Source: Streptomyces sp. AM 4-1-1
Lineage (GTDB): Bacteria > Actinomycetota > Actinomycetes > Streptomycetales > Streptomycetaceae
Assembly (NCBI RefSeq): GCF_029167625.1
Contig: NZ_CP119145.1
Coordinates: forward strand, 5,146,001-5,210,000
DNA length: 64,000 nucleotides
Direction of reading: 5' to 3'
The translations under genes and the position numbers were made by a program. The notes beneath the pieces are model-generated. The model did not search any database and was not told the DNA's origin. It saw only the letters and a program-made list of their open reading frames with translations. The stretch's first letter is position 1. Every line of letters starts with the position of its first letter. Shown here piece by piece: positions 3,372-36,898 of this stretch.

Positions 3372-4847
3372 GTGCCCTCCATGAACGACCTCGTACGCCA
3401 GCACACAGCCCTCGGTGACACCGACCTGGAGTGGCTGCACCTGCTGGTGTCGGAGTGGCAGCTGCTCTCCGACCTGTCCTTCGCCGACCTCGTCCTGTGG
3501 GTCCCCACCCGCGACGGCACCCGCTATGTGTCCGTCGCCCAGATGCGGCCCAACACCGGCCCCACCTCCTACCAGGACGACATGGTCGGCCATCTGGTCC
3601 CGCGTGGCCGCAGGCCGCTGCTGGACGCCGCGCTGGACGAGGGCCGGATCGTGCGCGAGGGCGACCCGGAGTGGCGCGAGGAGGTGCCGGTACGGGTCGA
3701 GTCGATCCCCGTACGCCGCGAGGGGCGCGTCCTCGGCGTCATCGCCCGCAACACGAACCTCCTGACGGTCCGTACGCCGTCCCGGCTGGAGCTCACCTAC
3801 CTCCAGTCGGCCTCCGACCTGGCGCAGATGATCGCCGCCGGATCGTTCCCGTTCCCGGGCCAGCAGGTCGACATGGACGCGTCGCCCCGGGTCGGCGACG
3901 GACTGATCAGGCTCGACGCCGACGGGGTCGTCCAGTACGCCAGCCCCAACGGCCTCTCCGCGTACCACCGCCTCGGCCTCGCCTCCGACCTGGTCGGCCA
4001 CCACCTGGGCCGTACCACCGCCGAACTCGCCCCGTCCAGGGGCCCGGTGGACGAGGCGCTGGTCACGGTCGCCAGCGGCTACGCGCCCCGGGAGTTCGAG
4101 GTCGAGTGCGCGAGCGGGGTGATCCAGCTCCGGGCGATCCCGCTCAAACCGAAGGGCGTGCGCATCGGCTCCCTGGTCCTGCTCCGTGACGTGACCGAAC
4201 TCCGTCGCCGGGAGCGGGAGTTGATCACCAAGGACGCCACCATCCGGGAGATCCACCACCGGGTGAAGAACAACCTCCAGACGGTGGCGGCCCTGTTGCG
4301 TCTCCAGGCCCGGCGAATGGATTCCGAGCAGGGGCGCGAAGCGCTCAACGAGGCGGTACGCCGCGTCGGTTCGATCGCGATCGTCCATGAGACGCTGTCC
4401 CAGAATCTGGACGAGCGGGTCGAGTTCGACGAGATCGCCGACCGGGTCATCGCGATGGTCGCCGAGATCTCACCGGGCAAGGTCGTCTGCCGCCGTACCG
4501 GCCGGTTCGGCATCCTGGACGCGGAAGTGGCCACTCCGCTCGCGATGGTGCTCACGGAGGTTCTGCAGAACGCCCTGGAGCACGCCTTCACCGTGGCCGA
4601 GCGGGGCACGGTCGAGGTCTCGGCGGTTCGCGGCGGTTCGCGCACCGACGGACGGCTGCTGATCACCGTTCAGGACGACGGGCGCGGTCTGCCCGAGGGC
4701 TTCGACCCGCAGCGCGCCGGCAATCTGGGGCTCCAGATCGTCCGCACCCTGGTCGAGGGTGAGCTGGGCGGGACGTTCGGCATGGTTCCGGCACCGGAGC
4801 GCGGCACCCGGGTGGTGCTCGACGTCCCGGTCCGCACGGTGAAGTAG
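3372..4847 (+). CDS. pdtaS: PdtaS-family cytosolic sensor histidine kinase
   Basis: This 491-residue protein has no membrane segment. Residues 1-160 match the GAF-like sensor domain of mycobacterial PdtaS (EWQLLSDLSFADLVLWV, MRPNTGPTS). A PAS domain spans about 170-280, followed by a HisKA_2-type domain with EIHHRVKNNLQTVAALLRLQ (phospho-accepting His near 295) and an HATPase domain with DDGRGLP. Such kinases signal to ANTAR-domain RNA-binding antiterminators. No partner is adjacent, and PdtaR-type partners are usually encoded elsewhere. The GTG at 3372 has no Shine-Dalgarno but lies 8 nt after a TACGCT -10-like hexamer, so the transcript may be leaderless. ATG 3381 is the alternative. The convergent whiB1-like neighbour repeats the mycobacterial arrangement. 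Confidence 0.9.
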   Translation: MPSMNDLVRQHTALGDTDLEWLHLLVSEWQLLSDLSFADLVLWVPTRDGTRYVSVAQMRPNTGPTSYQDDMVGHLVPRGRRPLLDAALDEGRIVREGDPEWREEVPVRVESIPVRREGRVLGVIARNTNLLTVRTPSRLELTYLQSASDLAQMIAAGSFPFPGQQVDMDASPRVGDGLIRLDADGVVQYASPNGLSAYHRLGLASDLVGHHLGRTTAELAPSRGPVDEALVTVASGYAPREFEVECASGVIQLRAIPLKPKGVRIGSLVLLRDVTELRRRERELITKDATIREIHHRVKNNLQTVAALLRLQARRMDSEQGREALNEAVRRVGSIAIVHETLSQNLDERVEFDEIADRVIAMVAEISPGKVVCRRTGRFGILDAEVATPLAMVLTEVLQNALEHAFTVAERGTVEVSAVRGGSRTDGRLLITVQDDGRGLPEGFDPQRAGNLGLQIVRTLVEGELGGTFGMVPAPERGTRVVLDVPVRTVK

Positions 4848-7293: not shown

Positions 7294-8250
7294 TCACTCC
7301 TCGATGAGCAGCCGTTCGCGCAGCTGCGCGAGCGTACGGGCCAGCAGTCGCGAGACGTGCATCTGCGAGATGCCCACCTCCTGGGCGATCTGCGACTGCG
7401 TCATGTTGCCGAAGAAGCGCAGCAGCAGAATCCGCTTCTCCCGTGGCGGCAGGTCCTCCAGCAGCGGCTTCAGCGACTCCCGGTACTCGACGCCCTCCAG
7501 CGCCTCGTCCTCCGAGCCCAGCGTGTCCGCGACCGCCGGGGACTCGTCGTCGGTGTCCGGCACGTCCAGCGAGAGGGTGCTGTAGGCGTTGGCCGATTCC
7601 AGCCCCTCCAGGACCTCTTCCTCGGAGATGCCCAGCCGCTCCGCCAGCTCGTGCACGGTCGGCGAGCGGCCGTGCTGCTGCGACAGCTCGGCGGTGGCCG
7701 TGGTCAGCGAGAGCCGCAGCTCCTGAAGCCGCCGCGGCACCCGGACGGCCCACCCCTTGTCACGGAAGTGGCGCTTGATCTCGCCGACGACCGTCGGGGT
7801 GGCGTACGTCGAGAACTCGACCCCGCGCTCCGGGTCGAACCGGTCCACGGACTTGATCAGCCCGATCGTCGCCACCTGGGTCAGGTCGTCCAGCGGCTCA
7901 CCCCGGTTGCGGAACCTGCGGGCCAGGTGCTCCACCAGCGGCAGGTGCATCCGCACCAGCCGGTTGCGCAGCTCGGCCCGCTCGGGTGAGCCGTCGGGGA
8001 GCGCGCGCAACTCCACGAACAGCGCGCGCGCGTTGCTGCGGTCATGTGGGTCGTGGTGCCCGTGCTCACTCATCCGGCTCGCCCGCTCCGCGTGCTCCAC
8101 CACGGCCGCCCGCCCCTCGCGGCCGTCCGCCCCGTCCGCCCCGCCCTCCGGGTGCGGCAGGGCCTGTTGTTCCGGGATGCCCGATACGGGCACCGCCCCT
8201 GGTCGGATCGTCTCGTCCCGCACAGGCCCGTCCCCGTTCCCGTCGCTCAC
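7294..8250 (-). CDS. sigH: SigB/SigF/SigH-family alternative sigma factor
   Basis: This 318-residue sigma-70 protein of the SigB/F group has region 2 around VRMHLPLVEHLARRF through GVEFSTYATPTVVGEIKRHFRDKGWAVRVPRR, then region 3 and region 4 with the helix-turn-helix QSQIAQEVGISQMHVSRLLARTL. It probably directs osmotic, heat or developmental stress genes. Its GTG start overlaps the ushX stop (GTGA), so translation is coupled to the anti-sigma gene. An internal ATG at codon 60 (MSEHGHHDPHD) could produce a shorter form. Multiple SigH forms are known in S. coelicolor. The N-terminal 60 residues are acidic and low-complexity. Confidence 0.92.
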   Translation of the reverse strand: MSDGNGDGPVRDETIRPGAVPVSGIPEQQALPHPEGGADGADGREGRAAVVEHAERASRMSEHGHHDPHDRSNARALFVELRALPDGSPERAELRNRLVRMHLPLVEHLARRFRNRGEPLDDLTQVATIGLIKSVDRFDPERGVEFSTYATPTVVGEIKRHFRDKGWAVRVPRRLQELRLSLTTATAELSQQHGRSPTVHELAERLGISEEEVLEGLESANAYSTLSLDVPDTDDESPAVADTLGSEDEALEGVEYRESLKPLLEDLPPREKRILLLRFFGNMTQSQIAQEVGISQMHVSRLLARTLAQLRERLLIEE

Positions 8251-9188: not shown

Positions 9189-10796
9189 ATGGACGCACTG
9201 CCGCTGGTGGCACTGGTGGCGGCCAGTGCGGCGGTCGCCGGGGCCGCCCGCCGGACCCCCGTGCCCGCCCCGCTCGTGCTGGTGGCGGCCGGGCTGGTCG
9301 CCGGGTACCTGCCCGGCGTACCCGCGTACACGCTCGACGCGCGCATCGTGCTGCCGCTGCTGCTGCCGCCCCTGCTCCACACGGCGGCCGTGGACAGTTC
9401 GTACCTCGATCTGCGGGCCAACGCCCGGCCGGTCGCGCTGCTGTCCGTCGGCTATGTCCTGTTCGCGACGTTCGCGGTCGGCTGGCTCGCGTATCTGTTC
9501 GTGCCCGGTCTGCCGCTCACCGCGGCGCTGGTGCTGGGCGCGGTCGTCGCCCCGCCGGACGCGGTCACCGCCGCCGCGATCGCCCGACGGGTGGGACTGC
9601 CCGCCCGGGTGACCACGATCCTCCAGGGCGAGTCCCTGGTGAACGACGCCACCGCGATCACCGCCTACAAGGTGGCGCTGGCCGCAGCCGTCGGCGAGGG
9701 GATGAGCTGGGGCGCGGGCATCGGGGAGTTCCTGCTGGCCGCGTTCGGCGGGGTCGGGGTCGGCCTGGTGCTGATGGTCCCGCTGCACTGGCTCCGCACC
9801 CACCTCAAGGAGGCCCTGCTCCAGAACACCCTGTCGCTGCTGATCCCCTTCGTGGCGTACGCGGCGGCCGAACGGGTGCACGCGTCCGGGGTGCTCGCCG
9901 TGGTCGTCGTCGCGCTCTACCTGGGCCACCGCTCCTGGCAGGTCGACTTCGCGACCAGGCTCCAGGAGGCGGCCGTCTGGAAGATGGTCGCCTTCGTGCT
10001 GGAGTCGGCGGTCTTCGCCCTCATCGGGCTCCAGCTGCCCGTCGTGCTGAAGGACCTCGGTGCCTACACCCCCGGACAGGCCGTCGGGTACGCGGTCGCC
10101 GTCTTCGTCACGGTCGTCGTGGTCCGTTTCCTCTGGGTCTACCCGGCGACGTATCTGCCGAGATGGCTGTCGAAGCGGATCAGGGAACGCGAGCCGGGGA
10201 CCGACTGGACCTCGCCCCTGATCGTCGGCTGGGCGGGGATGCGGGGTGTGGTCTCGCTCGCCGTCGCCTTCTCGATCCCGCTGGTCACGCACGGCGGCGG
10301 ACCGTTCCCCTCGCGCAGCCTGCTGCTGTTCCTGACCTTCACGACCGTCATCGGCACCCTGGTGGTCCAGGGGCTCACCCTGCCGCTGCTGGTCCGGGTG
10401 CTGAAGCTCCCCGGCCGCGACCCGCAGGCCGAGACCCTGGCCGAGGCGCAGGCCCAGAGCGAGGCGTCCACGGCCGCCGAGGCGCGGCTGGACGAGCTGC
10501 TGGACGAGGAGCGCAACCGGCTGCCGCCGCCGCTCACCGACCGGCTGCGCTCCGTGCTGGAACGCCGTCGCAACGCCGTGTGGGAACGGCTCGGCGCGCC
10601 CAACCCGGTCACCGGCGAGTCCGCGGACGAGACGTACCGGCGGCTGGCCGGGGAAATGATCGAGACCGAGCGTTCGGTCTTCGTGCGGCTCCGTGACGAG
10701 CGGCGCATCGACGACGAGATGCTGCGGACGCTGCTGCGCAGACTGGACCTGGAGGAGGCGGCGGCCTACCGCGAGGAACCGGACCGGTCGGACTGA
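9189..10796 (+). CDS. Na+/H+ antiporter, CPA1 family
   Basis: This 535-residue protein begins with about 12 membrane helices (residues 1-400) and ends in a charged cytosolic tail of about 130 residues. CPA1 hallmarks include GAVVAPPDAVTAAAIARRVGLP and LQGESLVNDATAITAYKVAL, with the ND and PPD acidic residues of the transport site, and GWAGMRGVVSLAVAFSIP in a late helix. It should exchange cytoplasmic Na+ (or K+) for protons and help with pH and salt stress. That fits its location next to the SigH osmotic-stress locus. The tail is rich in Glu and Arg and may be regulatory. Confidence 0.92.
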   Translation: MDALPLVALVAASAAVAGAARRTPVPAPLVLVAAGLVAGYLPGVPAYTLDARIVLPLLLPPLLHTAAVDSSYLDLRANARPVALLSVGYVLFATFAVGWLAYLFVPGLPLTAALVLGAVVAPPDAVTAAAIARRVGLPARVTTILQGESLVNDATAITAYKVALAAAVGEGMSWGAGIGEFLLAAFGGVGVGLVLMVPLHWLRTHLKEALLQNTLSLLIPFVAYAAAERVHASGVLAVVVVALYLGHRSWQVDFATRLQEAAVWKMVAFVLESAVFALIGLQLPVVLKDLGAYTPGQAVGYAVAVFVTVVVVRFLWVYPATYLPRWLSKRIREREPGTDWTSPLIVGWAGMRGVVSLAVAFSIPLVTHGGGPFPSRSLLLFLTFTTVIGTLVVQGLTLPLLVRVLKLPGRDPQAETLAEAQAQSEASTAAEARLDELLDEERNRLPPPLTDRLRSVLERRRNAVWERLGAPNPVTGESADETYRRLAGEMIETERSVFVRLRDERRIDDEMLRTLLRRLDLEEAAAYREEPDRSD

Positions 10797-10815
10797 GGGG
10801 CCGGGCCCGGCCGCG

Positions 10816-11730
10816 TCAGGCGCGGGACCGTTCGGGATCGCCCCCCGCCGTGATCACGGCAGCGAGCGTGATGCCCGGGGCGAAGGCGCCCTCCGCGGTG
10901 AGGGCGGTGAGCCCGTACAGCAGTTTGGCCACGTACAGCCGCTCGACGGCCAGTCCGTGCCGGTCCTCGAAGTCGTCGGCGAAGGCGTGCAGCCCGGGGG
11001 GTGTGCGGGCGTAGCCGCCGAAGTGGAAGCGCTCGTCCAGGGACCACCGGCCCGCCGGGCCGCCGAACGCGTCCCGTTGCAGCCCCCGGACCGCCTCGCC
11101 CAGGAAGCCGCCGCGCAGCACCGGGACGCCGAGGGCGCGCTGCCCGGGGCCGAGGCCCGCCGCGAGGCCGGCGAGGGTGCCGCCCGTACCGCAGGCGACG
11201 GCGGCCACGTCGGCCCGGCCGCGCAGTTCCCGGCCGAGCGCCGCACAGCCCTGTGCGGCGAGCGCGTTGCTGCCGCCCTCCGGGATCACCTGGCAGTCCC
11301 CGAAGGCGCTCAGCAGCCCGGCCAGGACCCCTGGGTCGGCCTTCGCGCGGTAGGTCGCCCGGTCCACGAAGTGCAGACGCATGCCGTCGGCGGCGCATCG
11401 GGCGAGTGAGGGGTTGAGCGGGCGGTGCGCCAGTTCGTCGCCGCGTACGACGCCGACGGTCGGGAAGCCGAGGAGCCGGCCCGCGGCGGCGGTGGCCCGC
11501 AGATGGTTGGAGTACGCCCCGCCGAAGGTCAGTACGGTTCGGCCGGAGGCGGCGGACAGGTTGGGGGAGAGCTTGCGCCACTTGTTGCCGGGCAGGTCGG
11601 GGTGGATCAGGTCGTCGCGCTTGAGCAGCAGGCGGACGCCGTACCGCGCGAAGCGCTCGTCCTCGGCCGGTCGCAGGGGTGACGGGACCACCGGCCGCAG
11701 CGGGGCTGGAGCGGGCGCTTCGTGGGGCAT
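10816..11730 (-). CDS. 1-aminocyclopropane-1-carboxylate deaminase / D-cysteine desulfhydrase family protein
   Basis: This 304-residue fold-type II PLP enzyme has LLLKRDDLIHPDLPGNKWRKL with the Schiff-base lysine in NKWRK, GGAYSNHLRATAAAGRLLGFPTVGVVRGDE as the Ser/Asn substrate loop, EGGSNALAAQGCAALG, and VACGTGGTLAGLAAGLG binding PLP phosphate. It could deaminate ACC or desulfhydrate D-cysteine, which this family does not separate by simple motifs. The ATG at 11730 opens MPHEAPAPAPLRPVVPSPL. The gene is convergent with the antiporter (19-bp gap). Confidence 0.88.
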   Translation of the reverse strand: MPHEAPAPAPLRPVVPSPLRPAEDERFARYGVRLLLKRDDLIHPDLPGNKWRKLSPNLSAASGRTVLTFGGAYSNHLRATAAAGRLLGFPTVGVVRGDELAHRPLNPSLARCAADGMRLHFVDRATYRAKADPGVLAGLLSAFGDCQVIPEGGSNALAAQGCAALGRELRGRADVAAVACGTGGTLAGLAAGLGPGQRALGVPVLRGGFLGEAVRGLQRDAFGGPAGRWSLDERFHFGGYARTPPGLHAFADDFEDRHGLAVERLYVAKLLYGLTALTAEGAFAPGITLAAVITAGGDPERSRA

Positions 11731-11794
11731 GGCTCCATTGTCGCCGGGGGCGGGACGGGGGCGTCCTCCCGGGGGCGGGGCCCGCCGGTGCCCG

Positions 11795-12385
11795 TCACTT
11801 GAGGCGGCTGTGAATCCGCTCGCGCAGCGAGTCCATGGTGAAGCCGCGCGGATCGGACTTGCCCGGCTGCCACTCCAGGTGGCCGATGACCGAGCGGGCG
11901 CCCCAGTCGTGGTGACGGCAGATCGCGGCCGCCGCCTTCTCGATCGCCTGGATCTGGACGTCGGGCCAGGGGTCCTTGCCGTCGCCGAGGTTCTCGCACT
12001 CGAAGCCGTAGAAGTGGGAGTTGCCGTCGGTGTTGGCCTCGTTGTCCTTGGGGAGGCCCTTCTCGGCGATGACGGCACGCAGTACGTCGTCGTCGCCGAG
12101 CCCGGCGTGGTTGGCGCGGCCGTAGCCGACGAGGTGGACCCGGCCGTCCTTGGCGATCACCCCGTGACAGAGCGGACCGGGCAGGTCCGGATGGCCGTCG
12201 CGGCAGAGCTCGACGGTGGTGTCGGTGCCCCGCGTGACCGTGTGGTGGATCATCACACCGTGCACCGGGCCCCAGGCCCCCGCCTGGTTGCGGTTGTGCG
12301 TGCGCCAGTCACCGACCTGGACGACGGTGAGGCCTTCGCTCTTCAGGATGTCGAGGAACGTGCTCGCGGACATGGGTGAGGACAT
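11795..12385 (-). CDS. Peptidoglycan recognition / N-acetylmuramoyl-L-alanine amidase domain protein
   Basis: This 196-residue amidase_2-type protein has the zinc-ligand motif GVMIHHTVTRG, the middle ligand region YGRANHAGLGDDD and the C-terminal EWQPGKSDPRGF that carries the last ligand. It has no signal peptide and no cell-wall binding domain, which is odd for a cell-wall hydrolase. It resembles prophage or ancillary endolysins and could need a holin or lysis to reach its target. The ATG at 12385 follows AAAGGAG with six-base spacing. It ends 64 bp upstream of the deaminase start and may be cotranscribed. Confidence 0.85.
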   Translation of the reverse strand: MSSPMSASTFLDILKSEGLTVVQVGDWRTHNRNQAGAWGPVHGVMIHHTVTRGTDTTVELCRDGHPDLPGPLCHGVIAKDGRVHLVGYGRANHAGLGDDDVLRAVIAEKGLPKDNEANTDGNSHFYGFECENLGDGKDPWPDVQIQAIEKAAAAICRHHDWGARSVIGHLEWQPGKSDPRGFTMDSLRERIHSRLK

Positions 12386-12577
12386 GACCGGCTCCTTTGC
12401 GCGTCAGGGTGGCTTGCCTGTACTGCGCTTGTACCGGAATGTCGGCCATCGGGCCATGTTCTGGTCTTTTGTTCGGACAGTGTGCGAGTCGTTCCGGTCA
12501 CCTGGCCGGGTCCGCCCGGGTGGCGGGTGGTGGTCCCGGGGCGACGGGGGCGCCCCGGTACCACGGTCCGGGTGGCC

Positions 12578-24190: not shown

Positions 24191-24267
24191 GACAGTAGGC
24201 GGACGCATGGGTGACGCCCGGCGTGGCATGTGCACGAATTGGGAACATAAGATGCATATTGCGCTGT

Positions 24268-25587
24268 ATGGGAACACAAGCGCGTAGGCGCGGCAAAGGA
24301 ACCAGAACGGCGGTGGCGGTCGCGGCGGCCGCGGCACTGGTGGGCATGCTCGCGCCCACCGCCCTCGCCGATCCGCTGCCCGGTGGTCTCGGGCCCTGCA
24401 TCGGCAACTGCCCCTCGGTCTGGCCGGACCCGAACAACGGGCCCGTCACCTACCACGACAGCAACGTCAACGTCTTCGTCGGCGGCGACTTCCTGGTACG
24501 GGAGGCCGCCGCCGAGGCCGAGGGCAAGGTCGTCACCCTCGGCTCGTTCGACATGAACAAGCGCGCGGGCGCGTCGATGATCTACAACGTCGGCGTCGCG
24601 GGAGTGGGTTCACGCGTTCCGCCGCCCAACGACGACGACTACCTGATCGTCGGTGACGACCTGACCGTGGCACCCGGCCAGCGGCTGCTCGCCGAGGAGG
24701 GGACGAACATCGGCGTGGTCAGATACGGGGGGAACCTCTCGGGGACCGTGATCCCGGCGGCCATCCACGACCCGGACGCCGCCGCCCCGTACACATCACT
24801 GCGCCCTGAGCTGACCGAGGCCAGCCACTGCTACGCCTACGACGGCAACCAGCGCCGGGCGGCCACCGGTACGTGGCAGCGGACCGGTTCCGACATCGTC
24901 TTCACCGGGGACGGGCAGTCGGCGATCCAGATCTTCTCCGTCGACGCCGACCTGGTGTCGGCGGCGGACGGGGAAGCGGGCTTCCAGTTCGACGCCATCC
25001 CGGCAGGCGCGACCGTGCTCGTCAACATCTACGGCAGTGACCGCAACATCAAGACCTTCATGGGGAACCTCCCCAACGCCGGTCTGCGCGAACATCTGCT
25101 GTGGAACTTCCCGGACGCCACCTCGATCGGTCTGTCCGGCAGCGGCCAGTTCCAGGGCAGCGTGCTCGTGGGCCAGCAGTCGAGCGTCACATCACTGTCG
25201 ATGAGCGGCACCAACGGCCGCTTCTACACGGCCGGTTCGCTGACCCACACCTCAAGCGGCCAGTCCGGCGGCGCGGAACTTCACGCGTATCCCTTCGAGG
25301 GCGATCTGCCGAGCTGTGCGGCAAGCCCGTCGCCGACCCCCACGGAATCGCCCACCCCCACCCCCACCCCCACTCCCACCCCGACCGAGACGCCCACCCC
25401 GACACCGACGCCGACGCACGGGACGCCGACGCCCCCTGTGACCCCGACCCCGACCCACAGCTCTCCGAGCCTCCCGGACACCGGGCCGCACGACGGTGAA
25501 TGGATTCTCGGTGGCATCGCCGGGACCCTCTTCGCGGGCGGCGCCGCGATGACGATGGCGGCCCGAAGGGTACGCCGCCGTCACTGA
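24268..25587 (+). CDS. Choice-of-anchor A domain, LPxTG-type cell-wall-anchored surface protein
   Basis: This 439-residue exported protein has a signal peptide at residues 1-35 (RRRGKGTRTAVAVAAAAALVGMLAPTALA), a choice-of-anchor A domain at about 50-350 (VNVFVGGDFLVREAAAEAEGKV, NGRFYTAGSLTHTSSGQSGGAELHAYPF), and a Thr/Pro stalk of PTPTPT repeats at about 360-405. The sorting signal is LPDTG followed by a hydrophobic helix and RRVRRRH. A sortase should attach it to peptidoglycan, displaying the domain on the hyphal surface. The motif is LPDTG rather than the LAxTG of class E substrates. Confidence 0.9.
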   Translation: MGTQARRRGKGTRTAVAVAAAAALVGMLAPTALADPLPGGLGPCIGNCPSVWPDPNNGPVTYHDSNVNVFVGGDFLVREAAAEAEGKVVTLGSFDMNKRAGASMIYNVGVAGVGSRVPPPNDDDYLIVGDDLTVAPGQRLLAEEGTNIGVVRYGGNLSGTVIPAAIHDPDAAAPYTSLRPELTEASHCYAYDGNQRRAATGTWQRTGSDIVFTGDGQSAIQIFSVDADLVSAADGEAGFQFDAIPAGATVLVNIYGSDRNIKTFMGNLPNAGLREHLLWNFPDATSIGLSGSGQFQGSVLVGQQSSVTSLSMSGTNGRFYTAGSLTHTSSGQSGGAELHAYPFEGDLPSCAASPSPTPTESPTPTPTPTPTPTETPTPTPTPTHGTPTPPVTPTPTHSSPSLPDTGPHDGEWILGGIAGTLFAGGAAMTMAARRVRRRH

Positions 25588-28225: not shown

Positions 28226-28684
28226 GGGGGACGTTCTCCTGTGCGGGGAAGTGACCGGCCGGCCCTGTGCGGGCGGCCTTGCTTGCGTGTTCCACTCTCC
28301 TCGGAGCCCCGGCCGCGCACAGCGGAGCCGGCTCCCGTTTCGGGGGTGTAGCCCGCTACACCCACCGACCGGCGTGGTGCGGACGACGGACGCCGCGTCG
28401 CCCACGGAACGTACCGGCCCGGAGCCCCCACCCACGCCCTCCGGCACCCGTACGCCCTCCGGCCTGCGCGTCCCCCGCCGGCCGGGCGTCACGGCGGCTT
28501 CCCCGGCCACCCGGCGGACCACCGCACACGTATATGTGTGGAAAAACGGTGTTGCGCAGAGTCTGGTGCGGGAGTCGGTGCTTCCCTAAACTGCCGCTGC
28601 TCGACGGCCAGTTCGGCCGTGGGCACGCCATCGGCACGCGCGTTCGACAGCAGCGTCGCCACCGCGCAGAGGGAGGGAACCGCC
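28226..28684. promoter_or_regulatory. Promoter region of the peptide-ligase-protease operon
   Basis: No gene is supported here. CACAC-GTATAT-GTGTG (28525-28540) is an operator-like inverted repeat, followed directly by GGAAAAACGG, an AT-rich patch unusual for the region. It lies about 145 bp upstream of the 22-residue peptide gene and is a reasonable place for its promoter and regulator. Confidence 0.4.
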
Positions 28685-28753
28685 ATGGTCAAGCACTACT
28701 TCAAGTACGCCCTGAGCACGCTCACCGCCGCCATGTTCGTCAGCATGGCCTGA
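28685..28753 (+). CDS. 22-residue cationic-hydrophobic peptide, candidate precursor or substrate
   Basis: This very short gene encodes a peptide starting MVKHYFKYAL and ending TAAMFVSMA. The first eight residues carry Lys/His/Tyr and the remaining 14 are hydrophobic or small, so it could insert in a membrane. A strong GGGAGGG ribosome site lies seven bases before the ATG, better than those of most genes here. It heads an operon with an adenylate-forming enzyme and a presenilin-like membrane protein and is separated from them by a stable hairpin. It could be a modified-peptide precursor, a membrane peptide cut by the protease, or an attenuator leader. No homologue is known to me. Confidence 0.6.
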   Translation: MVKHYFKYALSTLTAAMFVSMA

Positions 28754-28768
28754 TCCCGTCCGGCCCCG

Positions 28769-28800
28769 GCCTGGGCCGGGTGCGTATCACCGGCCCAGGC
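28769..28800 (+). terminator. Attenuator-like hairpin between the peptide and ligase genes
   Basis: GCCTGGGCCGG (28769-28779) pairs perfectly with CCGGCCCAGGC (28790-28800) around a 10-nt loop. It starts 16 nt after the peptide stop and ends just before the AGGAG (28804-28808) of the ligase. It could reduce read-through so that the peptide is made in excess. Confidence 0.65.
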
Positions 28801-28814
28801 TTCAGGAGCCCTCA

Positions 28815-30284
28815 TTGTTCGGTACCGCCCTGAGTCAACTCCGCTACGGCATGGCGATCCTCCGCAACCGGAGCATCCGCCCCCAGGACCTCGACCGGAT
28901 CGCCCGCGACCTGGTCGCCACCCTCGCCGAGTTCGGTGAACCGGGGGCCGACTCGGCGCTGCTCCCCGGCCAGGCCGGGCAGGTCGACCCCGAGATACGC
29001 CGCACCGTCACCAGGAGAAGCCTGCGGGCCACCGCACGCGCGGCCGTCCGGCACACGTCCTACTACCACCGGATCTTCGGTGAACTCGGACTCGACCCCG
29101 ACTCCCTCACCACCGAGACCTGGTCGCAGGTGCCCGTCACACCGAAGAAGGCGCTGCGCGGACTGCCGACCGCTTTCGTCTCCACGGCCGCCACACCCGC
29201 CCTGATGGCGCTGACCACGGGAACCAGCGGAACCCCCACCGCCGTCTGGTACTCCCGCGCCGAACTGGACACCACGATCGCCTTCAGCACCATCTCCGCC
29301 GCGCTGGGACTCGGCCTGCGCCCCCGGCACACCATGGCCTACGCGGGCTGCTCCAGAGCGACCCTGCCGCTGATCAACGCCGAGGAGTCGACCACCCGGG
29401 TCGGCGCCTCGTTCGTCCAGTTCGGCACGATCGACCCCGTGGTCGCCCTCGACCGTCTCGCGGCGCCGCTCGGCCTGCCCGGCAAGGCCCCGCAGATCAC
29501 CCACCTCACCACGTCCGCGTCCTACCTCTCCGCGCTCGTGCAGCACGCCGAACAGGACGGCTGGCGCCCCGCCGACTTCGGGCTGGAGAGCATCGGAGTG
29601 GGCGGCGAGGTGCTGTCCGGACCGTTGCGCGAGCGGGCCGAGGCCGCCTTCGGCGCCCCCGTGTCGACGTCCTACCTGATGACCGAGACACTGCCCTCCA
29701 GCGGCACCCCGTGCTCCCGGGGCCATCTGCACCACACCACCGAGTTCGGGCACCTGGAAGTGCTGGACCCCCTGACCTGGAGCCCGACCGGACCGGGCGG
29801 AACAGGCATGGTCGTGCACACCCCGTACGTCCCGTACCGGGAGTGCACACTCCTGCTGCGGTACGCCACCGGCGACCTCGTCCGCCTGCCCGACGCGGAG
29901 CCGGACTGCGAACTGGCGCACCTTCCGGCCACCTCCACCATCCTGGGCCGTTGGTCGGGACCGCTCAGCGCCACCGTCCCGACCAGGGACGTCCTCGACG
30001 TGATCGAGGCGGAACCGGACGTTCCGCTGCCCGCCCGGTACACCCTGACCGAAGAGCCGGACGGCGGCGTACTGCTGCATCTGCTGGTCCGGACCCTGCC
30101 CGCCGCGACGCTGCGACGGGCCCTGGAGGGGCGGATCGCGGCGTCGGGGATGGCCGTGACCGGCCTCGTGCTGTACGACGACCGGTCGGCCATGCCGCCG
30201 ACCGGCCCGGTCCGCGCGGATCTGCGCGAACACGCCTTCCAGCCGGTTCCGCAGGCCGCCGCACGGATGGGGAGTGGCGCATGA
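28815..30284 (+). CDS. LuxE/PaaK-like adenylate-forming enzyme
   Basis: This 489-residue ANL-superfamily protein has the AMP-binding loop LTTGTSGTPTAVWYS (134-141 core), a second core region around STSYLMTETLPSSGTP near 285-298, and YATGDLVRLPD near 350-360. It most resembles the phenylacetate-CoA ligase/LuxE branch, which activates carboxylates as acyl-adenylates and passes them to CoA or a protein thiol. The TTG start at 28815 is supported by AGGAG six bases upstream. The last codon overlaps the start of the next gene (ATGA), so the two are translationally coupled. Its substrate is unknown. The upstream 22-residue peptide or a fatty acid is possible. Confidence 0.8.
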   Translation: MFGTALSQLRYGMAILRNRSIRPQDLDRIARDLVATLAEFGEPGADSALLPGQAGQVDPEIRRTVTRRSLRATARAAVRHTSYYHRIFGELGLDPDSLTTETWSQVPVTPKKALRGLPTAFVSTAATPALMALTTGTSGTPTAVWYSRAELDTTIAFSTISAALGLGLRPRHTMAYAGCSRATLPLINAEESTTRVGASFVQFGTIDPVVALDRLAAPLGLPGKAPQITHLTTSASYLSALVQHAEQDGWRPADFGLESIGVGGEVLSGPLRERAEAAFGAPVSTSYLMTETLPSSGTPCSRGHLHHTTEFGHLEVLDPLTWSPTGPGGTGMVVHTPYVPYRECTLLLRYATGDLVRLPDAEPDCELAHLPATSTILGRWSGPLSATVPTRDVLDVIEAEPDVPLPARYTLTEEPDGGVLLHLLVRTLPAATLRRALEGRIAASGMAVTGLVLYDDRSAMPPTGPVRADLREHAFQPVPQAAARMGSGA

Positions 30285-31306
30285 ACGTGATCGCGCTCGT
30301 CGCACTGAGCTGCTGCGCGGCCGCGCTGATGGCCGCCGCGGGCTGGTACCTGGTCCGGGTCCGCATGCCCAGACCGCCGGTGGGTGTGTACGTCTCCGGT
30401 GACATCGCCGTACTGAGCGTCTGTGTCGTGCTGGCCCCGCTGCTCTACCTGGCACTGCCGGGGCTGGCGGTCTCGGCCCTGTTCGGTCTGGTCCTGTGTC
30501 TGGCCGCGCAGTTCACACTGGCCCCGGTCTGCGGAAACCGCTGGGCCTGGTGGGTCGCCCTCGCTGCGACGGCGCTGACCGTGGCCCTCGTCGGCCGGCC
30601 CGTCGCGGTGCGCGTGTGCACCGACGTCCTGCTCGCCGTCGCCGTGGTGGGCGTGGCCAACCTGTGGGCGCAGAGCGGGATGCGCTCGGCGCACGTGGCC
30701 GCCTTCGCGGCGGCCCTCTCCTGCTACGACCTGGTGGCCACCGCCCTCACCCACGTCACGTCGGACTTCGTCACCCAGGTGCAGGACCGGCCGTTCGCCC
30801 CGCTGCTCGCCCTGACGGGCGGCCGCCTTCCGGTGGCCGTGGGCCTCGGGGACCTGCTGCTGCTCCTGGTCTTCCCACTGGTCGCGGCCAAGGCTTTCGG
30901 CAGGCCGGCCGCACTGCTCGCGGCGGGCGTCGGAGTGGTCGTGACCAGCGTGATCGGTCTGCTGTTCGCGCTCGGGACGCTGACGGCGGGCTTCCCCCTG
31001 CTGACCGTGCTCGGCCCGCTGATCGTGGTGCAGCACCTGATCTGGACACGACGTACGGGCGGCGAACGCACCACGGCGTCCTGGCGAAGCGGCTCAGCGA
31101 CCCCGTCCACCCGCCCGGACCGCCGCCGCCCCGACCCGCAGATCACGGCTGCACTGGCCGTGAACGTGCCCGAGGAACTGCCGGAGGGCACCTGGCTGGC
31201 CGTCAACGACGGCCGCCTCATCGGCACGGGCAGCACTCCGGGCCTCGCCCGCCGGGACGCCGGACTGCGCGAGACGGAGGTGCCGCCCGTGGTCCGACAG
31301 ACCTGA
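30281..31306 (+). CDS. Presenilin-like (A22-type) nine-helix membrane aspartyl protease candidate
   Basis: This 341-residue protein has nine hydrophobic helices (about 1-23, 41-60, 61-80, 88-106, 107-131, 136-160, 183-203, 206-232, 236-254). Its motifs sit where presenilin and signal peptide peptidase have them: YD at 149-150 in helix 6, GLGD at 188-191 in helix 7, and FPLLTVLGP (238-246) at the PAL position of helix 9. A cytosolic tail follows, with a small domain like DUF5678 (GTWLAVNDGRLIGTGSTPG). Prepilin peptidases also use GxGD but differ in helix count and lack YD. It is translationally coupled to the adenylating enzyme. A specific substrate is unknown. The nearby 22-residue peptide is the obvious candidate. 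Confidence 0.65.
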   Translation: MNVIALVALSCCAAALMAAAGWYLVRVRMPRPPVGVYVSGDIAVLSVCVVLAPLLYLALPGLAVSALFGLVLCLAAQFTLAPVCGNRWAWWVALAATALTVALVGRPVAVRVCTDVLLAVAVVGVANLWAQSGMRSAHVAAFAAALSCYDLVATALTHVTSDFVTQVQDRPFAPLLALTGGRLPVAVGLGDLLLLLVFPLVAAKAFGRPAALLAAGVGVVVTSVIGLLFALGTLTAGFPLLTVLGPLIVVQHLIWTRRTGGERTTASWRSGSATPSTRPDRRRPDPQITAALAVNVPEELPEGTWLAVNDGRLIGTGSTPGLARRDAGLRETEVPPVVRQT

Positions 31307-31553: not shown

Positions 31554-32102
31554 CTACAACCCGGACCCTTCCCCACCCGCGAACACCTCGTACGGACCGG
31601 AGTAGTCGTCAAGGGTTGTGGATCGTGCTGTTGACGTCCATCGGGACTGCTCCGACTCGTTCCGGGTGAGTTCGTACTCGACTTCACTGTGCACGGAGCC
31701 CTCGATCACCTCCGGCCAGTCACCGGTGAAGGGGCGGACGAAGGACAGTCCCGACTTCTCCATGACGCGACGAGAACGGGTGTTGACGGCCATCGTGTTC
31801 GCCGTGACCCGGTCGACTCCCGGACCCGTGAACCCCTTGTGGATCAAGGCCCGGGACCCCTCGGTGGCGTAACCATGTCCCCACGCTGCCTGGCGCAACC
31901 GGTAGCCGAGTTCGACTACGGCTGTGCTGTGCTCCTCCAACGGCCGGAACGCGAACCAGCCCAGGAAGGTACCGGTGGCCTTCTCCGGGACGGCCCAGTA
32001 GCCGCAGGTCTCCCAGCATGGGTAATCGTGCAGGAGCCGGGGCAGGGTCCACGTCTCGATCGCCTGGCGGCTGGTGGGACGGCCACCGTTGACGAAGCGC
32101 AT
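31554..32102 (-). CDS. GNAT acetyltransferase, N-terminally truncated (RimJ/RimL type)
   Basis: This 182-residue protein starts inside the fold: MRFVNGGRP corresponds to the loop after the first helix of RimJ/RimL acetyltransferases. VVELGYRLRQAAWGHGYATEGSRALI carries the acetyl-CoA loop and VTANTMAVNTRSRRVMEKSGL the motif B helix. The same frame continues upstream as SSFTAADTDHLLALDND, which looks like the missing N-terminus, but no start codon is available and it runs into a 22-bp inverted repeat at 32145-32207. The C-terminal 35 residues after YELTRNE are also atypical. It is probably a decaying gene at the island border. Confidence 0.6.
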   Translation of the reverse strand: MRFVNGGRPTSRQAIETWTLPRLLHDYPCWETCGYWAVPEKATGTFLGWFAFRPLEEHSTAVVELGYRLRQAAWGHGYATEGSRALIHKGFTGPGVDRVTANTMAVNTRSRRVMEKSGLSFVRPFTGDWPEVIEGSVHSEVEYELTRNESEQSRWTSTARSTTLDDYSGPYEVFAGGEGSGL

Positions 32103-32144
32103 GACCGCGTGGTCGTTGTCCAGTGCGAGCAGGTGGTCGGTGTC

Positions 32145-32207
32145 GGCCGCCGTGAACGAAGAGACCTGGCCGCACGAAGCGGTCGGGTCTCTTCGTTCAC
32201 GGCGGCC
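32145..32207. repeat. 22-bp perfect inverted repeat at the island edge
   Basis: 32145-32166 and 32186-32207 are exact reverse complements (arms begin GGCCGCCGTGAACG) around a 19-nt spacer. It interrupts the 5' end of the GNAT gene. It could be the former terminator downstream of sodN or a fold-back duplication. Confidence 0.85.
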
Positions 32208-32237
32208 TGCGGCGCAGCCAGGCCGTCAGAGCGGGAC

Positions 32238-32258
32238 GATCAAGCCTTCTTGGTCTCC
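32238..32258. other. attL: copy of the 3' end of sodN
   Basis: The 21 bases GATCAAGCC...GGTCTCC are identical to 38560-38580, which encode the last residues and stop of sodN. Only this short identity block is shared; flanks differ. It marks the left border of the inserted element. Confidence 0.85.
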
Positions 32259-32371
32259 AAGTAATGGGCCGGGTCGGTGACCTGCGGGGATCTTCCCTGT
32301 GGGCCGCTGACCTGGCCTTTTGTCGTTGGCCAGCGATGGGCCCTGACGGTCCTGATCAGGTGTCCTGCGGA

Positions 32372-32515
32372 CTATGTGCGGACTCGTTCCGGCTCAGAGA
32401 GCGAGAGCTGAGTGTCGGAGAGGGGTACCCGGATGCGGGCGCTGAGTCTGGCTTCTGGGGCTTCGGTGCGGCGGCGGTTGGAATCCTCACGCTCGGCGAA
32501 GCGGCGGTTCTCCAT
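32372..32515 (-). CDS. Small hypothetical protein in the island, doubtful
   Basis: A 47-residue charged product (MENRRFAEREDSNRRRTEA...) follows a G-rich run five bases before its ATG. There is no recognisable domain. The whole 610-bp stretch between attL and darT holds nothing else convincing, apart from an ATGAC-CTG-GTCAT palindrome at 32825-32837 near the darT promoter. Confidence 0.25.
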   Translation of the reverse strand: MENRRFAEREDSNRRRTEAPEARLSARIRVPLSDTQLSLSEPERVRT

Positions 32516-32868
32516 GAGAGCCCCCCTGTGCTGCTGCCCCGGCCACCAGCAGCTTTCCGACGGATGTGCCCTCACCGGTTGCCGACCCGGTCGTTGTTGG
32601 TGGTCGTCACGGGTATGCAGTGGTAGCGAGCCAAGGACGGCCCTGGGTCTGCCGACGCGGTGCCCTTCGGCGGTTCTCGAACCGAAGCGATGTCCGAGCC
32701 ATCAAGTACATTGCCGCACAGGCGCCTTGACTGTGCTGGCCCCACTCGGACGGCTATGGGGCGCCACGTAGCCCCTTGGATGGAGTATTGCGGATCGTGG
32801 TGGGACTTGCACTCTAAGTAGTAGAATGACCTGGTCATGGCGGACAGTTGGCCAAAGGAGTTGCGGAC

Positions 32869-33516
32869 GTGCCAAATGCGGTACCGAACAGGCCAATTTA
32901 TCACATCACGCATATTCGTAACTTACCAAGGATTCTCGCTCAAGGCGGGCTGTTCAGTGACAATTCCGCTGCCCGGCAGAACCTTACCGACACGGATATC
33001 GGAATGCCTGGCATCAAGCAGCGTCGACGCACAACATCGGTCGATTGTGGACCTGGAGGCACGCCTGCAGACTATGTCCCATTTTATTTCTGCAATCGAT
33101 CTCCCATGCTTGCCTCTATTAATTACGGCAATGTTCCGACCTATCGTGAGGGGCAAGACCCGGTCGTCTACTTGACCTCAAGCCTAACTGCAGTAAGAAG
33201 CTCTGGCCTCCCTGCTGTATTTACCGAAGGGAACGCAGGGGCTACATTCGTTGATTTCCATTCCGATGATGTCGAACTCTGTGAGAAGCTCATCGACTGG
33301 CAGCTGATGACTCAGAAGTGGTGGAATGACATACCCGAAGATCCGAACCGGGCGAGTCGACGTCAGGCCGAATATCTAGTGCACAAATTCTTCCCAATCT
33401 CACTCGTGGCTTCAATAGTTGTTCATGACGAGCGCCGGGCCGATGAAGCTCGGGCTATTCTCACCGAACGCGGTGTTTCAATTCCCGTCGTGGTGTATCC
33501 TGAGTGGTACTACTAA
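32869..33516 (+). CDS. darT: DarT-type DNA ADP-ribosyltransferase toxin
   Basis: This 215-residue protein has the DarT fold: IYHITHIRNLPRILAQGGL with the NAD-binding His, DYVPFYFCNRSPML, and RRQAEYLVHKFFPISL with the catalytic Glu near 168. It transfers ADP-ribose from NAD+ to a base in single-stranded DNA and blocks replication. The GTG at 32869 follows AAAGGAG with a 10-base gap and gives the family length. The low GC and a TTA leucine codon (residue 19, so bldA-dependent translation is possible) contrast with the chromosome. The stop overlaps an ATG of the antitoxin frame. Confidence 0.92.
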   Translation: MPNAVPNRPIYHITHIRNLPRILAQGGLFSDNSAARQNLTDTDIGMPGIKQRRRTTSVDCGPGGTPADYVPFYFCNRSPMLASINYGNVPTYREGQDPVVYLTSSLTAVRSSGLPAVFTEGNAGATFVDFHSDDVELCEKLIDWQLMTQKWWNDIPEDPNRASRRQAEYLVHKFFPISLVASIVVHDERRADEARAILTERGVSIPVVVYPEWYY

Positions 33517-33536
33517 TGAGTGGAGGGGTGGCGACG

Positions 33537-34619
33537 GTGATCCAGGAATCGCAAGGCAACCTGCTTGAAGCGGACGCGGAAGCCATCGTTAACACTGTCA
33601 ATACTGTTGGTGTCATGGGGAAGGGTATTGCCCTGCAGTTCAAGCAGGCTTTCCCTGAGAATTTCAAGCAGTACAAGGCTGCCTGTGACCGAAGCGAAGT
33701 GAGGGTCGGTGAAATTTTCGTCCATGACGCTCACCACCTAGGCCCCCGTCGATACGTTCTGAACTTCCCGACGAAACGTCACTGGCGCAGTAAGTCGCGC
33801 ATCGAGGATATTCAAGCAGGTCTCGATGCGCTGGTTGAAGTGGTGAAGAAATACAATATTGAATCCGTTGCGGTTCCCGCTTTGGGGTGCGGGAATGGTG
33901 GGCTTGATTGGGGCGACGTCCGTCCCATGATCCAAGCTGCTTTTGAACCCTTGTCGACGGTTAAGGTGCTGGTGTTCCCGCCAGCGGGTGCACCGGCGCC
34001 TGATTTGATGCCGGTCCATACCGGCGCACCGAATATGACCCGGGGAAGGGCCGCTCTAGTGGCTCTACTGAGTGGCTACGTCGAGCAGGCGAGATCAGAG
34101 CGTGTTGAGGCCCCTGGTGGAGCATCGCTGCTCGAACTCCAGAAACTCATGTATCTGCTTCAGGCTGTCGGAACGCCTATGCGGCTGCGCTATGAGAAAG
34201 CGCAATACGGACCTTACGCCGAGAATTTGAATCATCAGCTTCAGCGTATGGAAGGCCATTTGGTCCGAGGGTATGGCGACCGAACTCAGCGCGTGCTCGA
34301 TTTTCATCCTGTCACGCTTACGCGGGATGCAAAGGCATCTGCGGATTCTTGGATCGAAGAGCATCGCGATGTGCAGCTCAAGGAATCTATCGATAAGGTT
34401 CTTGAGGTGATCGATGGATTTGCCTCTCCGTACGGCCTTGAACTGCTGTGCACGACGCACTGGGTCATTCATGAGCTGGGGGCTGATGCGCCACAAAGTG
34501 CCGTAATTGACACGCTCCAGAAGTGGAGTCGCCGTAAGGCGGAGATCTTTACTGAACGACACGTTTCGATTGCCCGGAAGCGCCTGCAAGAGAAGCAGCT
34601 GGGTGCGCTCTCTGTCTGA
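33537..34619 (+). CDS. darG: DarG-type macrodomain antitoxin (DNA ADP-ribosylglycohydrolase)
   Basis: This 360-residue protein has a macrodomain at 1-150 (GNLLEADAEAIVNTVNTVGVMGKGIALQFK, the catalytic Lys of NFPTKRHW at residue 80, PALGCGNGGLDWG) that removes ADP-ribose from DNA. A C-terminal domain (LLELQKLMYLLQAVG, YEKAQYGPYAENLNHQLQRMEGH) resembles the toxin-sequestering domain of DarG. The GTG at 33537 is preferred because GGAGGGG lies eight bases upstream and the start MIQESQGNLLEAD matches the family. An ATG at 33516 overlapping the darT stop is the alternative. The pair forms a toxin-antitoxin or phage-defence operon. Confidence 0.92.
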   Translation: MIQESQGNLLEADAEAIVNTVNTVGVMGKGIALQFKQAFPENFKQYKAACDRSEVRVGEIFVHDAHHLGPRRYVLNFPTKRHWRSKSRIEDIQAGLDALVEVVKKYNIESVAVPALGCGNGGLDWGDVRPMIQAAFEPLSTVKVLVFPPAGAPAPDLMPVHTGAPNMTRGRAALVALLSGYVEQARSERVEAPGGASLLELQKLMYLLQAVGTPMRLRYEKAQYGPYAENLNHQLQRMEGHLVRGYGDRTQRVLDFHPVTLTRDAKASADSWIEEHRDVQLKESIDKVLEVIDGFASPYGLELLCTTHWVIHELGADAPQSAVIDTLQKWSRRKAEIFTERHVSIARKRLQEKQLGALSV

Positions 34620-35271: not shown

Positions 35272-36898
35272 GGCTCTGTCTCACATTCGGTGGTGACTCT
35301 GCGTGGTGTTATCCGAGGAGGATGCGGTGGCGAAGGAGGGTGAAGCCTGCTCGTCCGTGCATCTGGCGGGCAATCCGCTTGGTCTTGGTGTTGACGCCCT
35401 CGGTCGGGCCGTTGCTGTACGGGAGTGTGAATGCGGCGATCACAGCGTCGCGGTCTCGCTCGAGACCGCGGGTGAAGGCGTGCAGATACGGCAGATCGGC
35501 CGCGCGGACCTGGGCGACCCATCGGTCGAGTGCATCGGCGTTTTCTGGCTGAGGCTTCAGAAGTAGAGCGAAGGTCCGGATGTGGGTTGCCAGTTGGGTC
35601 AACTCGGGGCAGGCGGCGGTGAGCCGGGCCAGGAGGTCGTGGTGCTCGGCCTTGAGGTTGTCGGGCCTGGTGAGGAGCATCCGGCGAGTCTGCGTGCGGA
35701 GATATGGCTGCGGTCGGCGTCCGCGCGCCCTTGGTTGATGTACTTGTGCAGGAGGTTGAGGCAGCCCGTGAAGCCAAGGGCCTTGATCTCTCCGAAGAGG
35801 TGCTGGACGGGGACGGCGGGGTCGTCAGCCCGGCGTTTGCGCAGGTGCTCGCGGTAGGGATCGACGAGGCTGGCGCGGTATTTCGGGACGCGGAGCATCC
35901 GCTCGGGCCGGTCGGCTCGGGCATAGCGTTTGACGGTATTCAGGGCCAGATGCAGACGGCGGCCGCACTCGAGGAGACCCACGCCCTGGTCGAGGAGGTC
36001 GTGAATCTGGTGCCAGCGCTCCAGGGTGGTCCGTGCGCGGGGCCCGTCATACAGGGGCGCCTCCAGCACGGTGGCCCAGCAGGTGCTGTGCGCCTTGATC
36101 TCGCTCAGGGCGGCTTCGCACAGGTTGTGCCATAAATGCCGGCGGTCACCGACCTGCACTGCATCGGGCAGAGCGCGGCGGATGGCCTCGGCGTAGGTCG
36201 CCGAGCCGTCACGGCACACGATCTCGACGCTCCGATGTTCGCGCAGCCAGGCTTCCAGAGTGTCAGCCGTGCGGTCGGGCAGCACGTCGATCCGCTCATG
36301 GGTCTCGGCGTCGATCACCACGGTGGCATAGCGGTGCCGCCGGCGCAGAGCGAAATCGTCGACGCCGATCACGCGGGGCGCCCGTCCCGTGGGCAACGGA
36401 ATCCGCAACAGGGCCCGCAGAGCCGTGTGACGCGACAGGCCTACCGCGAGTATCGCCAGTACGCGCGTCCCTGCCCGGCCCGCTAACTCCTTGACTACCG
36501 CCTTGACCTGCGCGGTCAGGCGGGTGGTGCGTCGCTGATAACGCTCCAGCACCCCGGGCACCTGCTCGCGGAAGGTGTGGCGGCAGCCGTGTGTCGGACA
36601 GACCAGACGCCGCACCCGTACACGGACCACCACTCGTCGGCCGTCGACCGGTACGTCGGCCACGGTCCGCCAGTGATACCCGTGAACGCGCCCCGACGAG
36701 GCCCCGCACACGGGGCAGGGCGCGGTCTTCTGCGGAGTCCGCGCCCTCACCACGACCCGCTCGCCCTCGTCGACCACATCCTCAATGACCAGCGGAGATA
36801 TCCCCGCAAATACCATCTGCGCAAGCTGGTTGACATCCATCACATCGATGTCAACGACACTCACCACGCAGAGTCACCACCGAATGTGAGACAGAGCC
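35272..36898 (-). mobile_element. ISL3-family insertion sequence
   Basis: A 1.63-kb element is bounded by perfect 37-bp terminal inverted repeats (35272-35308 and 36862-36898, ends GGCTCTGTCTCACATTCGG). Flanking inverted sequence continues for another 17 bp on each side (35255-35271 and 36899-36915), so without the IS the flanks would make a palindrome centred on AACGTT. The two flanks share AACGTT as a possible duplication. It encodes one transposase, now frameshifted. Confidence 0.85.
35309..36840 (-). pseudogene. ISL3-type transposase with a frameshift near the C-terminus
   Basis: The first frame (start near 36840) has a zinc-binding N-terminus (CPVCGASSGRVHGYHWRTVADVPVDGRRV, CPTHGCRHTFREQ), HTH, and a DDE domain (VIGVDDFALRRRHRYATVVID, WLREHRSVEIVCRDGSATYAEAI, GDRRHLWHNLCEAAL). 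Near 35675-35690 it shifts into unrelated Ser/Pro-rich sequence. The missing conserved end (LPYSNGPTEGVNTKTKRIARQMHGRAGFTLLRHRILL, with the last catalytic Glu) lies in another frame ending at 35309. One indel therefore inactivates it unless ribosomes slip. Confidence 0.85.

Follow-up and report, generated by a model that had tools for sequence, protein, structure and literature searches.

A candidate peptide-maturation operon in Streptomyces pairing a short peptide with a PaaK-type ligase and a putative SPP/presenilin-type membrane protease

Two described bacterial systems come near to the three-gene unit analysed here, which lies in a 64,000-nucleotide (nt) stretch of DNA (hereafter the window) from Streptomyces sp. 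AM 4-1-1 (contig NZ_CP119145.1, positions 5,146,001 to 5,210,000, of a 7.47 Mb genome in two contigs). The unit encodes a 22-residue peptide, an adenylate-forming enzyme (hereafter the ligase) and a membrane protein with the predicted fold of signal peptide peptidase (SPP) and presenilin. The closest analogue in concept is TMcin, a ribosomal peptide with a membrane helix; an intramembrane protease from a neighbouring gene matures it within the membrane, much as we propose here. In the part of that report considered here, the machinery consists of an S2P-clan DUF3267 metalloprotease (TmcP), a DsbA-like enzyme, an ABC exporter (TmcBC) and an escort protein, none of which is found in the present unit, and no ligase is described (PMC13252029). 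The peptides here are only 22 to 29 residues long, and we did not class the unit with TMcin, its protease having an aspartyl fold and no Pfam match. The second system is streptococcal SHP/Eep, where a short hydrophobic peptide is matured by a membrane protease with an active site believed to be located in a transmembrane domain; Eep is a zinc metalloprotease, SHPs act with Rgg regulators and PptAB export, and the part of the source considered mentions no ligase (PMC7564271). In our material no regulator family stood beside most of the 23 loci compared, in a survey that was not aimed at Rgg.

Each enzyme also has described relatives. Compared to SPPL2a, PSEN1 and the archaeal PSH/MCMJR1 proteins, the membrane protein is bacterial, has no sequence-profile match, carries LGP instead of PAL, and shares its operon with the genes of a peptide and a ligase. 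PaaK1, BT_0428, NatL2, ClxA and AjiA1 are PaaK-family ligases, the last three being ester or amide ligases; the present enzyme differs from them by the lack of a conserved counterpart of PaaK Lys422 or NatL2 Lys418, by an N-terminal helix resembling the peptide, and by its permanent pairing with a membrane protease. No description of an operon combining peptide, ligase and presenilin-like protease was found among the matches listed from the open-access literature, subscription journals being largely outside this scope. We rate the unit as new as a system, each enzyme being of known fold. Our preferred reading, to which we give a probability of roughly 55%, is that of a self-contained peptide-maturation cassette making a modified membrane peptide, that is, a product resembling ribosomally synthesized and post-translationally modified peptides (RiPPs).

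Three genes conserved and co-inherited as a unit

All three genes lie on the forward strand. The peptide gene, a candidate precursor or substrate, occupies 28685..28753 (ATG at 28685, 22 codons and a stop), encodes MVKHYFKYALSTLTAAMFVSMA, and stands behind the Shine-Dalgarno sequence AGGGAGGG (28670..28677, +), as read from the sequence. After a 61-nt spacer with a hairpin comes the ligase gene (28815..30284, TTG start, 489 residues, Shine-Dalgarno AGGAG at 28804-28808), whose stop overlaps the ATG of the membrane-protein gene (30281..31306, 341 residues) as ATGA. An earlier note, made from these letters alone, had given the coordinates of the unit (28685..31306) and its couplings, including the strong ribosome site of the peptide gene and the overlap of ligase stop and membrane-protein start; all were borne out when the window was read again.

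Related loci were gathered through the membrane protein, from named records and further genomes, and a locus was called intact when the matched ligase and protease spans held no stop. All 22 intact actinobacterial loci (the window and 21 fetched loci) were thus found through the protease, and in every one a short open reading frame (ORF) with a ribosome site ends 56 to 291 nt before the ligase. The search proposed in the earlier note, for a conserved peptide upstream of orthologous ligase-protease pairs, therefore came out positive at 22/22 of these loci and, of the three Chloroflexota loci that have a ligase, at one (L007). The 22 loci yield 18 distinct peptides. Type 1 peptides have 22 residues and begin MVKHY, with diverged relatives in L031 (22 residues) and L032 (26 residues); type 2 peptides have 28-29 residues and begin MSAIK or MSAIV. 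A score matrix made from six type-1 peptides ranked the expected ORF first among 77-165 small ORFs at 21/21 fetched intact loci, 11 of which (L031, L032 and nine type-2 loci) carry diverged peptides absent from the matrix. The margin is narrow, the lowest score of an expected ORF being 23.7 (L054) and that of the best background ORF 21.3 (L025).

Among the Chloroflexota, L007 (a Thermomicrobiales metagenome-assembled genome, MAG) has two tandem peptide copies in front of the ligase; the score of the second (16.0 with the held-out matrix) is within background. In L005 (an Anaerolineales MAG), two copies (28.5 and 24.8) lie downstream, beyond the protease gene and on the other strand. No peptide was found in L006 (Anaerolineae), whose 3.8-kb contig extends about 570 nt upstream of the ligase. 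Beside the L005 copies, a third small ORF, MKKLILDISSMLAWFRELWWKVVRFGRSLN (4410-4502, −), has a similar start and end and lacks the core.

The peptides share a layout made of a charged N-terminal part, a short hydrophobic core and a tail of 4-6 residues. The core consensus is [KR]-Y-[AV]-Phi-[SG]-[TSA]-[LM]-x-A-x-x-F. Taken one per locus, 24/24 peptides carry a Y or L ten positions ahead of the F; aligned on this F, they give the full core [KR]-[YL]-[AVI]-[FLMVY]-[SGA]-[TSAL]-[LMI]-[TASG]-[AGNS]-[AVT]-[MFLAG]-F, an amino-acid core common to Actinomycetota and Chloroflexota and better conserved than the peptide ends. In 26/26 peptides the part that ends with [KR]Y carries a net charge of +2 to +5, and the tail one of 0 or +1. 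Third codon positions hold the largest share of codon differences, counted as pairwise sums (143/313 in type 1, 46/80 and 45/70 in the two type-2 groups). In the gene table of the NBC_01324 plasmid, which is incomplete and the only annotated record of the unit examined, no gene is entered at the peptide position; gene finders can overlook such a gene.

Distribution was measured in 295 genomes of the window's genus, with thresholds of E<=1e-5 for the protease and E<=1e-25 for the ligase. At most 7 protease and 5 ligase candidates were scored per genome, and genome counts are thus lower bounds. The protease was found in at least 18/295 genomes and the ligase in at least 17/295, the 17 being a subset of the 18; independent occurrence of the two, which the earlier note had named as the outcome that would speak against it, was not what we saw. 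The odd protease genome (G023, L027) holds only a piece of the protease, and no ligase. A DNA pattern for type-1 peptides matched 7/295 genomes, exactly those with type-1 ligase-protease pairs, each match lying just upstream of the ligase; control columns gave 0 among the matches listed. The intact unit is present in at least 16/295 genomes (7 of type 1 and 9 of type 2), each time with a peptide, and also on two linear Streptomyces plasmids. In G485 (L056) ligase and protease have both decayed. None of the decayed loci, L027, L056 and L048 (Nonomuraea gerenzanensis), gave a peptide match: the ligase lacks its first 261 residues in L048 and about its first 160 in L056, and both proteases are frameshifted. 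Pairwise distances of peptide, ligase and protease correlate strongly, as expected for co-inherited genes; when only type 1 is considered, peptide and protease distances correlate less strongly (r 0.63, 1/2000 permutations as high). In wider searches, a class-wide search with P0114 recovered only its own genome of 148, the order of G001 gave 1/61 and the class of G002 3/298. One further protease, in G607 (L077), is encoded close to a contig end; this contig, of 5.5 kb, gave no ligase match and is uninformative on neighbours. We conclude from these comparisons of sequences that the three genes are conserved and co-inherited as a unit.

The hairpin between peptide and ligase lies at 28768..28801 (+; arms 28768-28779 and 28790-28801). 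For the spacer of the window the minimum free energy is −35.6, and 100 dinucleotide shuffles of it average −26.0 (z −3.3), so that the stable hairpin described in the earlier note is real by this measure. A z below −2 was obtained for 20/22 spacers, the exceptions being L023 (z −0.5) and L057 (z −1.5). The longest stem is 12-15 bp in 21/22 spacers and 8 bp in L032; the stem sequence varies among groups and pairing is maintained. Since a run of at least four T is present in one spacer only (TTTT in L028), we propose that the hairpin acts by partial termination or mRNA protection, which would leave more peptide than enzyme message. In L034 (S. sennicomposti), the spacer before the ligase is enlarged to 291 nt with a GC-rich repeat (about 7434-7724), and about 500 nt (about 9198-9697) separate the ligase and protease matches.

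Upstream of the peptide gene, a promoter-like element spans 28562..28592 (+; TCTGGT at 28562-28567, TAAACT at 28587-28592). TCTRGTG and CCTARACTGCCGCTGC, promoter by resemblance only, are kept in the window, L003, L023 and L034, the same four loci in which GAGGGAGG is invariant within the Shine-Dalgarno region of the peptide. Other groups share promoter-like elements of their own, for example TTGA...TAATGT in L024, L046 and L049.

The membrane protein and the ligase

The structure predicted for the membrane protein has nine transmembrane-length helices in the SPP/presenilin fold. Alignment and model place a YD motif (Y149, D150; 30725..30730, +) in transmembrane helix 6, with the first putative catalytic aspartate, and a GLGD motif (188-191; 30842..30853, +) at the start of helix 7, with the second. 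YD is invariant in 84/84 aligned members, and in 30/30 when the distant type is included; the same holds for G188, G190 and D191 (84/84 and 30/30). At the last helix, about where presenilins have PAL, the alignment shows LGP(L) (LGP at 244-246; 31010..31018, +), with G245 invariant and L244 and P246 in at least 90% of the 84 members. A small C-terminal alpha/beta domain (286-341; 31136..31303, +) is weakly DUF5678-like (21/84 members match at E<=1, best E 0.0045), and is shortened or missing in the Chloroflexota proteins. Pfam and PDB sequence searches for relatives gave nothing useful, the window protein having no Pfam match, and the kinship to SPP and presenilin thus rests on fold and motifs. 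The presenilin-like nine-helix protein of the earlier note is strongly supported by the predicted fold and the invariant motifs, and we treat it as a putative SPP/presenilin-type intramembrane aspartyl protease.

The ligase has a PaaK-type fold with the ATP-binding core motifs. PaaK-type NCBIfam models match it below cut-off (57.1 bits for the PaaK model, whose cut-off is 700), and the general AMP-binding domain PF00501 was found in many of its relatives. Where the earlier note had written LuxE/PaaK-type, the PaaK half stands; LuxE acyl-protein synthetase membership was rejected, the window ligase having no Pfam family at E<=10. Residues 460-470 are what we take to be the counterpart of the PaaK region whose C-terminal lysine contacts the alpha-phosphate, an equivalence (A10 lysine) judged from the motif and from the end of the PaaK1 alignment rather than residue by residue. 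A K occurs anywhere in residues 455-478 in 9/72 members. The enzyme appears to lack a conserved A10-region lysine, and is thus not PaaK (phenylacetate-CoA ligase) proper.

By sequence comparison, an N-terminal helix of the ligase (residues 7-22; 28833..28880, +) resembles the peptide core, as if both bound one partner or docking site. The PaaK1 alignment begins only at ligase residue 42; the idea of a family-specific helix was dropped, as the HCL and NatL2 structures align from residues 8-9.

Proposed pathway and rival explanations

The interpretation offered in the earlier note is partly supported by these results. A conserved precursor gene beside dedicated enzyme genes, as expected of a RiPP locus, is found here. 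The insertion, cleavage, conjugation chemistry and role that we infer would run as follows. The peptide would insert N-in/C-out, in the manner of a signal peptide that has been released from its protein. The SPP-like protease, sharing the orientation of SPP, would cleave it within the membrane with no prior cut. The cytosolic ligase would then activate a carboxylate as acyl-AMP and form an amide or ester bond; this carboxylate would be either that of a small acid, to be loaded onto the peptide, or the C-terminus newly exposed by the cut. The product would be a small conjugated peptide, a signal or a bioactive metabolite, possibly leaving the cell with no exporter of its own, and the hairpin would hold peptide mRNA above enzyme mRNA.

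Work on the eukaryotic enzymes gives this scheme its geometry: in the part of the source considered, SPP and SPPL proteases cut type II-oriented segments, SPP, SPPL2a and SPPL2b seem to favour short ectodomains, signal peptides need prior release by signal peptidase before SPP cleavage, and helix-destabilizing residues are a determinant for SPPL2a/b (PMC7366577). Midway along the peptide core come residues that are small or weaken helices ([SGA], followed mostly by T, S or A). The peptides resemble signal peptides already cut free, and their geometry would fit a substrate.

Several observations weigh against this reading. The hydrophobic stretch is 12 residues long with a mean Kyte-Doolittle value of 1.1-2.4; because it is short and only moderately hydrophobic, the peptide may bind the membrane surface instead of inserting. 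The tail and first residues vary between groups, so that the mature product cannot be read from sequence. In type 1, nonsynonymous codon differences exceed synonymous ones (151 versus 112, pairwise sums), and purifying selection there is therefore modest. The L005 peptides lie outside the ligase operon, and no exporter or receptor was found linked to the unit. Among the 18 families matched at E<=1 by the 84 protease members there is no SPP/presenilin (Pfam A22) model, for which reason we assign the protein to a bacterial family of its own that has this fold. K is missing at ligase residues 460-470 in 72/72 aligned members, and ligase activity is consequently not certain. Cleavage, binding and product are predictions.

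In the chief rival, which we consider unlikely, the peptide permanently accompanies the protease, or a ligase-protease complex, as a small subunit or regulator, and the real substrate would be elsewhere. Membrane enzymes with very short single-helix subunits are known; a core more conserved than the ends, and a ligase helix that looks like this core and could share its docking site, also speak for it. Two diverged peptide copies in L005 and L007, a hairpin suggesting an excess of peptide over enzymes, and a geometry that suits a substrate argue the other way. More improbable still is a toxic hydrophobic peptide held in check by protease and ligase, as a toxin-antidote or bacteriocin-immunity unit: the small, cationic-hydrophobic peptide, the patchy distribution (at least 16/295 genomes) and the presence on two linear plasmids would suit it, whereas the ligase has no evident antidote role and PADLOC offers no model for the ligase or protease of the window or L028. 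Decay does not separate this explanation from the preferred one, since L048 and L056 have lost the peptide and the ligase start, and L027 is free of ligase.

Two further explanations seem to us very improbable, to about the same degree. Peptide and hairpin could be a cis-acting leader or attenuator tuning ligase translation or transcription, as the strong hairpin next to the ligase ribosome site might suggest; but an amino-acid core kept between Actinomycetota and Chloroflexota, L005 copies that lie past the protease gene and on the other strand, and the absence of a four-T run from 21/22 spacers do not fit a leader. Alternatively, the membrane protein could keep fold and aspartates for another task, with no peptide cleavage. 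Its protease activity is a prediction, it matches no A22 profile, and it has LGP in place of PAL; yet both aspartates and their motifs are invariant in the aligned members, and archaeal MCMJR1 is active with PPL and no PAL, according to the part of that report considered here (PMC2947513). Returning to the maturation cassette, we suggest only tentatively, at somewhat less than even odds, that a ready-trimmed, signal-peptide-like substrate, cut in the membrane by a bacterial SPP and either conjugated at its released end or loaded with an acid by a PaaK-type ligase that lacks the customary lysine, defines a new class of bacterial peptide made in the membrane.

Neighbouring genes and meaning of the unit

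Flanking ORFs of at least 80 residues were compared at 23 loci. The clusters with most loci reflect synteny of close relatives, and several two-locus clusters join unrelated loci, which we read as chance neighbours from large families. One cluster, loose and formed by single linkage, consists of NB-ARC/TPR or BTAD (SARP-like) regulators in varied orientation and touches 4/23 loci: L031 (4656-7055, at 260 nt), L032 (3554-6532, 304 nt upstream, and 9596-12526, 242 nt downstream), L023 (1972-4635, at 1.4 kb) and L003 (862-1980, at 2.5 kb). These families are large in such genomes, and the genes were not counted as members of the unit and are read here as chance neighbours; a regulatory link at some loci is possible. 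An ABC ATPase-like gene 2-3 kb downstream is common only to L028 and L034. Since neighbouring genes mostly differ between loci, the unit looks self-contained, or largely stand-alone.

Some neighbours may be recorded in their own right. The type-2 close relatives L028, L029, L030, L053 and L055 have a common divergent upstream gene, a possible local regulator, whose copy in L030 (6018-6842, −) is IclR-type. In the window, a DarTG-like toxin-antitoxin pair (32848-34619, +), made of DarT (E 2.1e-62) followed by a macro-domain protein (E 2.4e-28), sits just past the operon in a low-GC stretch (58.8% at 32001-34000), and an ISL3-family transposase (35599-36867, −) marks a mobile element close to this island. 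On the other side, an ORF at 24211-25587 (+) encodes a protein that combines a putative ice-binding-like adhesive domain (pAdhesive_15) with a long TP-rich repeat and a terminal LPDTG motif. An anti-phage system was considered and rejected, neither enzyme of the window or of L028 having matched a PADLOC model.

SPP and presenilin have central roles in human biology. If our reading is true, the membrane protein would be, as far as our searches show, the first protease of this fold with a genetic link to a single dedicated substrate. No prokaryotic member seems to have a known natural substrate, and here a candidate 22-residue substrate is encoded in the same operon; for MCMJR1, its authors stated in 2010, in the part of the report considered, that they did not know its physiological substrates (PMC2947513). 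A small, genetically simple system would then be at hand for studying how a substrate is chosen and cut, and intramembrane aspartyl proteolysis and PaaK-type ligation would join the known routes to ribosomal peptides.

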